Shown: piece by piece, positions 4,066 through 31,962 of the stretch
How positions within the stretch are numbered: the stretch's first letter is position 1
How the letters are laid out: the number at the start of each line of letters is the position of its first letter
Assembly: GCA_001797275.1 (NCBI GenBank)
Contig: MGOY01000014.1
Coordinates: forward strand, 186,001-250,000
Reading direction: 5' to 3'
Length of the DNA stretch: 64,000 nucleotides
From: Clostridiales bacterium GWF2_38_85
GTDB lineage: Bacteria; Bacillota; Clostridia; Oscillospirales; CAG-382
Notes under the pieces: model-generated
The model's database searches: none
Seen by the model: the letters and a program-made list of their open reading frames with translations, nothing else
What the model was told of the DNA's origin: nothing
Translations under genes and position numbers: made by a program

Positions 4066-4593
4066 TTGCGAATATTTATAGCTTTAAATTTTGATGAAAA
4101 GACAAAACAAAAGCTGTATAATATACAGGGAAAGCTGCTTCAGATAGGTATAGAGGGTAATTATACAAGGAGTGAAAATTTTCATCTGACGCTCGTATTT
4201 ATCGGAGAAACAAATAGGATTGATGATATAAAGGTTGCAATGAATAAAATACAATTTGCTCCGTTCAATCTAATTATCAAAGGAGCAGGGATATTTTCTC
4301 AGAGAGACAGCAAAATTCTTTGGGCGGGAATATATGCGCCATCATTATTGATTAATATACAAAAACAATTAGCCGACGATTTACAAAAATTGAAATTTGA
4401 CATTGAAACATGGAAATTTAAACCGCATCTTACTCTAATAAGGAATGCAGTTTTACCAAATAGTATCACAATGAATACAATATCGAATATAATCGGTGAA
4501 ATGTATGTTGAAATAAGTAAATTATCACTTATGAAATCCGAGAAGATAAACGGTATATTAACTTATACCGAAATTTATAATTCACATAAATAA
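4066..4593 (+). CDS. thpR: RNA 2',3'-cyclic phosphodiesterase, 2H family
   Basis: 2H phosphoesterase of the LigT/ThpR group (175 aa, usual length). It hydrolyses 2',3'-cyclic phosphate ends of RNA. Both catalytic His-x-Thr motifs are present: HLTLVFIGE near residue 45 and HLTLIRN near residue 125. The reading frame starts with TTG at 4066, preceded by GGATGG at suitable spacing; no in-frame ATG lies near. It is followed by about 100 bases of AT-rich intergenic sequence. Confidence 0.88.
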   Translation: MRIFIALNFDEKTKQKLYNIQGKLLQIGIEGNYTRSENFHLTLVFIGETNRIDDIKVAMNKIQFAPFNLIIKGAGIFSQRDSKILWAGIYAPSLLINIQKQLADDLQKLKFDIETWKFKPHLTLIRNAVLPNSITMNTISNIIGEMYVEISKLSLMKSEKINGILTYTEIYNSHK

Positions 4594-19993: not shown

Positions 19994-20018
19994 TAAATAT
20001 AACGTTAGAAGAGGGGCA

Positions 20019-20152
20019 AGGTTGAACAAAAAGAATCACCTCTTCCAATTTCAGTTTGTTCAGTCAGCGAGTTTGTGCTTATCCGCCATAATGCGTGACA
20101 GTAATTTCAGCAAACTGAAATAGCACAAACTCTAAAAGAAAGCATGTGACTT
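20019..20152 (+). ncRNA. Duplicated 134-bp element, copy 1 (before ntpG)
   Basis: This gap-free element is about 80% identical (about 108 of 134 bases by eye) to 31031-31164 and ends, like it, 3 bp before an ATG. Conserved blocks are AGGTTGAACAAAAAGAA, GTTCAG, GCGAGTTTGTG and CACAAACTC followed by AAAAGAAAGCATGTGACTT. Stems: TGAACAAA/TTTGTTCA (20023-20030/20055-20062) and GAGTTTGTGC/GCACAAACTC (20069-20078/20123-20132, perfect 10 bp). A third perfect 10-bp pairing, TTTCAGTTTG/CAAACTGAAA (20049-20058/20111-20120), would compete with the first and form a pseudoknot with the second. A TTG-initiated 33-codon frame (NKKNHLFQFQFVQ...) also lies inside. The following gene has no Shine-Dalgarno site. 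Confidence 0.65.
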
Positions 20153-20155
20153 AGA

Positions 20156-20524
20156 ATGAAAATATTTCTTATAAGCGATAACAATGACACCCTTTTAGGA
20201 ATGCGGTTTGCAGGTATTGAAGGTGTTATTGTACATGATAAAAATACTGCAATAGAAAAAATAATTGAAATTACAGCAGATAAAGATTGTGGTGTCATTT
20301 TAATTACATCGAAGCTGAAAAATCAGTGTAACGATTTCTTAAGTGATTTTATGGAGAAAAACCCTATACCTTTGTTCCAGGAGATACCTGACAGACATGG
20401 TGAACAAAGAGAGGGAAGCTCAATTCTTGAATTCATCGAGCATTCTATCGGGTTGAAGCTTGGTAATACCGGGAAAGATAATAAAAACATGAGCAAAGAT
20501 GAAAAAGATACTGAATTAACCTAA
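20156..20524 (+). CDS. ntpG: V-type ATPase subunit F
   Basis: A 122-aa subunit F (NtpG, AtpF) of the central stalk. The N-terminal part has the alpha/beta fold typical of the family (MKIFLISDNNDTLLGMRFAG, GVILITSKL, PLFQEIPD), and the C-terminal helix is long, charged and variable. Its ATG sits 3 bp after the 134-bp repeat, with no Shine-Dalgarno site in the usual place; an ATG-TGA pair stands 10-15 bases upstream. Translation probably depends on the repeat or on coupling. Confidence 0.85.
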   Translation: MKIFLISDNNDTLLGMRFAGIEGVIVHDKNTAIEKIIEITADKDCGVILITSKLKNQCNDFLSDFMEKNPIPLFQEIPDRHGEQREGSSILEFIEHSIGLKLGNTGKDNKNMSKDEKDTELT

Positions 20525-30981: not shown

Positions 30982-31030
30982 TTAGCATAACGAAGACAAA
31001 TATATAATATGGTAAAGGTTTGGTTATTTT

Positions 31031-31164
31031 AGGTTGAACAAAAAGAAGCATCGCTTCCAATCTCAGCTTGTTCAGCCTGCGAGTTTGTGATTTTCTACCG
31101 TAATGTATTGCTATAATTTCTATAAACCGAAACCACACAAACTCCAAAAGAAAGCATGTGACTT
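31031..31164 (+). ncRNA. Duplicated 134-bp element, copy 2 (before the MORN gene)
   Basis: Same length as copy 1 at 20019-20152, about 80% identical without gaps, and ending at the same distance (3 bp) from an ATG. It forms TGAACAA/TTGTTCA (31035-31041/31068-31074) enclosing GAAGC/GCTTC (31045-31049/31053-31057), and GAGTTTGTG/CACAAACTC (31081-31089/31136-31144, perfect 9 bp). The competing third pairing seen in copy 1 is not kept. The shared TTG frame is cut by TGA after 18 codons. The terminal AAAAGAAAGCATGTGACTT with its ATG-TGA pair is identical in both. Confidence 0.65.
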
Positions 31165-31167
31165 TAT

Positions 31168-31962
31168 ATGATAAAAAAGAATGTCCGCCTGAATCCAATA
31201 GTCGCACTTTTATTCTTTGCTTTTATTTCTGTTTTATTGACTGTCTTGATAATATTAGCTCTAGGATATCGGTATATTGCAACTGACGAGTGTAAATTTA
31301 TCGGGAAAACAGGAAACGGACAGCCATTGACAGGTACGATATATTATAACGATGGACGAATCGGCGAGCTTGATTATGTAAACAACACAATTATGTATTC
31401 AAATGGCGATGTTTATACCGGAGACATAGATCAGCTATATCGTCATGGTACCGGAAAGATGACATACAGTGCTACCAGTGATACATATGAAGGCGATTTC
31501 AGGGAAGATAAAATGACCGGTCAAGGTACTTATACATATAAAAACGGTGATAAGTATGTCGGCGCTTTAGTTGATGGTAAAAAAGAAGGTTATGGTGAGT
31601 TCTTCTGGGCTGATGGTTCTTCATATAAGGGCAATTTCATCAATAATATGAAGGATGGAAATGGTGTGTACACTTGGGTTGACGGTTCAAAATATCAGGG
31701 AGCCTATACCAAAGACCTGAAAGATGGTTCAGGGACTTATACATTTTCAAATGGTGATGTTTATACCGGAGCCTTTAAAAACGATGTTAGAACAGGATAC
31801 GGAACATATATCTGGGAAAACGGCGAGAAATACGAAGGCGAGTTTCTTGATAACTATATCCACGGATACGGAACATATACCTGGGTTAATGAAGATGGAA
31901 ATCCGACAAGAACATACGAAGGTTATTTTGAATACGGTAAAATAGTCATAAAAGACGAATAA
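31168..31962 (+). CDS. MORN-repeat protein with an N-terminal membrane anchor
   Basis: A 264-aa protein with one N-terminal hydrophobic helix (residues about 12-32, LLFFAFISVLLTVLIILAL) and, from about residue 85, some seven 23-residue MORN repeats of the form GxGxYxxxxGxxYxGxF (for example DKYVGALVDGKKEGYGEF, SKYQGAYTKDLKDGSGTY). The repeats form an elongated beta-sheet, probably outside the cell or at the membrane face; such domains often act as spacers or bind membrane lipids. The start lies 3 bp after copy 2 of the 134-bp element and has no Shine-Dalgarno site. Confidence 0.85.
   Translation: MIKKNVRLNPIVALLFFAFISVLLTVLIILALGYRYIATDECKFIGKTGNGQPLTGTIYYNDGRIGELDYVNNTIMYSNGDVYTGDIDQLYRHGTGKMTYSATSDTYEGDFREDKMTGQGTYTYKNGDKYVGALVDGKKEGYGEFFWADGSSYKGNFINNMKDGNGVYTWVDGSKYQGAYTKDLKDGSGTYTFSNGDVYTGAFKNDVRTGYGTYIWENGEKYEGEFLDNYIHGYGTYTWVNEDGNPTRTYEGYFEYGKIVIKDE

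Follow-up and report, generated by a model that had tools for sequence, protein, structure and literature searches.

A small non-coding mobile DNA family of Clostridia that probably inserts into the gap between Shine-Dalgarno sequence and start codon

Why are two genes with unrelated products, one for V-ATPase subunit F (atpF) and one for a MORN-repeat protein, preceded by almost the same stretch of DNA? Both genes are located in the window, by which we mean the whole analyzed stretch of 64,000 nucleotides from Clostridiales bacterium GWF2_38_85, and the coordinates of both copies and of their parts are listed in Table 1. A comparison of the two copies using blastn revealed 81% identity over 134 of 134 bases without any gap (E=8.9e-30), which bears out the end-to-end alignment given in a preliminary description of this locus, as well as its observation that both copies stop 3 bp before an ATG. 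The stems named there, TGAACAA/TTGTTCA and GAGTTTGTG/CACAAACTC, are also found in the window copies, and the sense strands fold with z-scores of -3.5 and -2.0 compared to dinucleotide shuffles. The statement that neither gene has a Shine-Dalgarno (SD) site was wrong: the element itself carries AAAAGAAAG, and additional SD-like sequences are located upstream of it (AGAAGAGGGG at atpF and AAAGG at the MORN gene). We consider it probable that both copies belong to a family of small non-coding mobile DNA, whose members enter a gene in sense orientation between its SD and its start codon, leave exactly 3 nt in front of the latter, and provide a presumptive replacement SD in their 3' tail.

Table 1. 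Positions of the two element copies, their parts and the adjoining genes in the window.
Feature	Position	Strand	Details
Native SD-like AGAAGAGGGG of atpF	20007..20016	+	now 5' of copy 1; SD enrichment in 5' flanks is family-wide
Element copy 1, subfamily 1	20019..20152	+	separates the SD of atpF from its ATG
Hairpin P1, copy 1	20020..20065	+	arms 20020-20030 / 20055-20065
Three-way junction, copy 1	20069..20132	+	closing stem P2 arms 20069-20079 / 20122-20132; inner hairpin P4 20104-20121
3' tail, copy 1	20133..20152	+	SD-like AAAAGAAAG; followed by AGA and ATG at 20156
V-ATPase subunit F gene (PF01990)	20156..20524	+	start 3 bp after copy 1
AAAGG, 5' of copy 2 (MORN gene)	31014..31018	+	SD-like, more distant than that of atpF; flank AAAGGTTTGGTT also in the element-free G001 orthologue
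Element copy 2, subfamily 1	31031..31164	+	adjoins the MORN gene on its 5' side
Hairpin P1, copy 2	31031..31078	+	arms 31031-31041 / 31068-31078
Junction domain, copy 2	31081..31144	+	stem P2 arms 31081-31089 / 31136-31144
3' tail, copy 2	31145..31164	+	SD-like AAAAGAAAG; followed by TAT and ATG at 31168
MORN-repeat protein gene (PF02493)	31168..31962	+	start 3 bp after copy 2

The two copies are not an isolated segmental duplication, as the genome of the window (G000) contains 74 matches at E<=0.05 to a final covariance model built from 96 copies. Using blastn 12 matches were detected in this genome, and a first covariance model built from seven copies yielded 29, among them a second and more divergent subfamily with the same plan. 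With a covariance model of this second subfamily 15 of 119 relatives were positive: G001 has 16 copies, G040 17, G045 11 and G112 22, and most of the others have none. In a low-sensitivity survey of the class with the final model, 7 of 391 genomes were positive. Scanning of named records with a DNA pattern added the cultured Acetanaerobacterium elongatum and several Oscillospiraceae and Clostridia MAGs. Copies are also present on viral contigs of IMG/VR (L234-L237, L273-L275), where they precede phage genes and a recombinase, and given these copies phages may ferry the element between hosts; a blastn search of phage and plasmid records gave no match. One MAG labelled Desulfobulbaceae (L149) contains the same stretch as the viral contig L237 and its host label is therefore doubtful. 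A search of Rfam 15 with both subfamilies at relaxed E-values revealed no matching family, in agreement with the preliminary description, which did not recognize the element as a known riboswitch, T-box or repeat family. The family is previously undescribed and unannotated, and its distribution in other Clostridia and some phages is patchy.

The element is non-coding and about 50 to 170 bp long. Read from 5' to 3', the arrangement consists of the native SD with a few bases, the insertion point, a hairpin P1 (consensus AGTTTGAAAGATAAATCTTTCAAACT in the main subfamily), a three-way junction formed by stem P2 and the inner hairpins P3 and P4, the tail AGAAAGGAATGGTCATA, three bases and the start codon. 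Where copies stand in tandem they abut exactly, tail against P1. Short forms of about 50-60 nt consist of P1 and the tail without the junction domain and are common in G001 (L201 dapB, L195 metH, L268, L283, L284 and others). In some copies tiny hairpins such as AGCTTTCGCAAGGCGAAAGCT are found within the tail between AAAGGAA and ATGGTC (L162 at about 4185-4210; 3' ends of L068 and L082), which represent a second, still smaller insert between the SD-like site and the ATG.

The most striking property of the family is its position. In 102 of 105 distinct copies the element lies in sense orientation directly before an open reading frame, and the start codon is located exactly at the end of the model in 88 of the 105, which means that it is usually 3 nt away. 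The suggestion of the preliminary description that a dispersed element could have been captured as a 5' leader applies to the family as a whole, the copies are not placed at random relative to genes, and the search of related genomes proposed there returned many copies 3 bp before start codons with covarying stems. As the models include the tail and the ATG, the search was repeated with P1 alone, and 47 of the 58 unique exact copies found in this way precede the start of an open reading frame, while a reversed control pattern gave zero matches. Inspection of the other eleven copies by eye indicated several antisense readings, as well as decayed or truncated copies. Because the distance to the start codon is fixed and the distance to the SD is not, the start codon appears to be the point of reference for the placement. 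Selection may contribute to this pattern, since insertions elsewhere in the ribosome-binding site would be lost; neutral intergenic sites are nearly empty of copies as well, and this is not explained by selection alone. For about two thirds of the copies, an upstream open frame on the same strand ends within 60 nt of the 5' boundary of the element, and the delivery of a promoter is for this reason unlikely as a role. At ileS (L096) the element stands before a GTG from which the protein would be about 11 residues longer at its N-terminus than usual; translation of this gene may in reality start at the next ATG, which has an SD of its own.

Evidence for insertion comes from the sequence in front of the element and from orthologous genes. 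The 22 bases 5' of the element pair with the 16S rRNA tail at -8.8 kcal/mol compared to -3.8 kcal/mol for control flanks (p=2e-32), and 83% of the flanks reach -6 kcal/mol or lower, compared with 21% of the controls. The end of this SD core is most often 4 nt and mainly 2-6 nt away from the insertion point, and in-silico excision of the element restores an SD-start spacing with a mode of 7, close to the spacing of 6-7 in ordinary genes of the window. An empty site is found at pyrH, where G044 reads GGAACGGGGGAATATATATG and G068 consists of GGAACGGGGGGATA, the element and CACATG. Similarly, the flank AAAGGTTTGGTT of the MORN gene is the same with the element in G000 and without it in G001. The genes atpF, gmk, ilvE and others carry the element in G000 and lack it in G001, the converse is true for rplI and others, and orthologues without the element are found in both G001 and G007. 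As the element-free orthologues of sister species start with a plain SD-ATG, we regard the copies as insertions and not as ancestral leaders. This presence and absence at orthologous sites of related species is the pattern expected of a mobile element. At dapB and metH the site is occupied by some form of the element in both sister species, with a different or shorter form in the second one, which may point to old shared insertions or to repeated insertion.

The conserved 3' tail AGAAAGGA is complementary to the 3' end of the 16S rRNA. The complementary runs in the tail are most often 7-8 nt long, and their register relative to the start hardly varies from 9-10 nt, which places the tail SD 2-3 nt further from the AUG than in native genes. 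Judged from this complementarity, the tail probably replaces the SD that is split off by the insertion. In 63 copies of A9 the tail also contains an in-frame ATG that precedes the gene start by exactly 12 nt (MVIxM; e.g. L039 1615-1629); both window copies have ATG TGA at this place, so that an in-frame AUG is not required. A leader peptide starting from a YTG in P1 is not conserved either, because the reading frames vary among the copies.

In the mechanism that we propose, insertion would split the native SD from the start codon, the tail AGAAAGGAATGGTCATA would act as a replacement SD and the ribosome would bind there but still initiate at the original AUG. In this way a functional start would be regained with every insertion, which would do almost no harm, and this near-harmlessness could let copies accumulate before essential genes. 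The fold of P1 and three-way junction would serve the spread of the element itself, probably as folded DNA, rather than regulation of the host. The preliminary description had considered that the element might supply or control translation initiation: supply is in line with an SD-like tail complementary to the 16S rRNA, from which we infer the replacement, and the part concerning a regulatory RNA is not supported.

Such an RNA would be a folded leader, riboswitch-like or protein-binding, which controls in cis the access to the tail SD in the genes of a regulon. The location directly 5' of start codons, the SD within the element and the conserved and strongly covarying stems would fit this explanation. 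Changes on both sides are found in 30 of 34 pairs, and the covariation score is 0.51 in an alignment that was fitted to the structure, compared with 0.15 for shuffles and at most 0.10 for slid controls; the covariation agrees in an independent MAFFT alignment of eight copies. An alternative pairing of the 3' arm of P1 with the tail SD, as far as can be seen by eye, is possible in some subfamilies only. However, the downstream genes have no common role, sister-species orthologues do without the element, short forms dispense with the junction and Rfam holds no match. Furthermore, a functional RNA is expected to tolerate G.U pairs, but in the stems G.U (103) is not preferred over A.C (117), with observed/expected ratios of 0.42 and 0.48, respectively. 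As A.C is as common as G.U, it is more likely that the pairing reflects a requirement of folded DNA, or of source copies, followed by neutral decay after insertion, than an RNA function, and we regard the regulatory leader as unlikely.

A tiny RNA intron, which is cut from the mRNA and thereby rejoins the native SD to the start codon, would explain why virtual excision gives a canonical SD-AUG spacing, and the sharp boundaries and the conserved fold would be in line with it. We consider this very unlikely, as a strong SD kept in the tail would be pointless if the tail was removed, a known ribozyme core is absent, the fold is variable in length with a dispensable junction, and a reverse transcriptase was not found in several carriers. 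Even less probable is mobilization by a Y1 transposase or a reverse transcriptase, with the family being a non-autonomous IS200/IS605 or REP-type hairpin element or a derivative of a group II intron or retroelement: the small size, the terminal hairpin and a pairing that looks like a DNA-level feature speak for it, but Y1_Tnp (PF01797) was not found in the draft genomes of the carriers G000, G001 and G045, RVT_1 (PF00078) was not found in the drafts of G001, G040, G045 and G112 (the latter only 60% complete), and the 5' flank has no fixed short target motif. With several carriers lacking these genes, a correlation of the element with RVT_1 or Y1_Tnp was rejected. Integron attC sites were also dismissed, because the arms GTTGAAC...GTTCAAC of subfamily 1 share the core letters but not their order, and are missing from subfamily 2.

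Points against a mobile DNA family that enters the gap between SD and start are the greater distance of the tail SD from the AUG, the sites of dapB and metH occupied in both sister species, and the fact that our analysis revealed neither a transposition event nor an enzyme. A non-exhaustive inspection of P1 copies from five genomes and the viral contigs, comprising full or short elements, detected no enzyme gene inside the element. Terminal inverted repeats are absent, as the ends AAGTTTGAAAG and GGAATGGTCATA are not complementary and the 5' hairpin lies within one of them. In 86% of the copies the last base of the 5' flank is an A, but a target duplication is not seen at the empty sites of pyrH and the MORN gene. 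It is conceivable, and we offer this only tentatively, that the target is the translation start itself, so that a start site bound by the ribosome is read for placement and the imitation ribosome-binding site keeps the entered gene expressed.

To our knowledge, no mobile element targets the gap between SD and start and replaces the ribosome-binding site that it splits. A search of the literature on mobile elements at ribosome-binding sites, with supplements, preprints and most subscription papers outside its range, revealed no description of such an element. Related solutions exist in other systems. The byps of yeast mitochondria, mobile translational bypassing elements, are small hairpins which insert within coding sequences and are hopped by the ribosome; they resemble the present element as mobile hairpin inserts tolerated by a translation trick, but the element described here does not need hopping. 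Split ribosome-binding sites, as in phage T4, likewise have a folded stretch, a hairpin, separating SD and AUG; there the fold shortens the distance from the old SD to the AUG, whereas the present insert, dispersed and mobile, comes with an SD of its own. Among small bacterial mobile repeats (MITE, RUP, ERIC, Correia) and the Rickettsia palindromic elements (RPE), reviewed in PMC2229807 and PMC10969869, a size of about 100-200 bp and a dispersed, non-autonomous and folded nature are shared features. In contrast to MITE, RUP, ERIC and Correia, the present element has no terminal inverted repeats and, among the copies inspected, no clear target duplication or parent IS; its position is set at 3 nt in front of start codons, and a 16S-complementary tail probably replaces the SD. 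RPEs are also tolerated inside unrelated essential genes, but they insert in frame within the coding sequence, whereas the present copies precede start codons. The TAACTGA direct repeats of Beggiatoaceae, a 7-nt tandem repeat before the starts of unrelated genes (PMC4679880), are similarly dispersed, mostly in one orientation, a few nucleotides before start codons and patchy across taxa; they differ in having little SD character and no long fold, and the intergenic regions that contain them seldom have a canonical SD.

Taken as a mobile family with a replacement SD, the element would account for the presence of a repeat at dozens of housekeeping genes in a host that survives it. It alters translation start regions between sister species and raises the question how the start codon can set the point of insertion. 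Should the tail function as a portable ribosome-binding site, genetic work with Clostridia may also gain a useful part.
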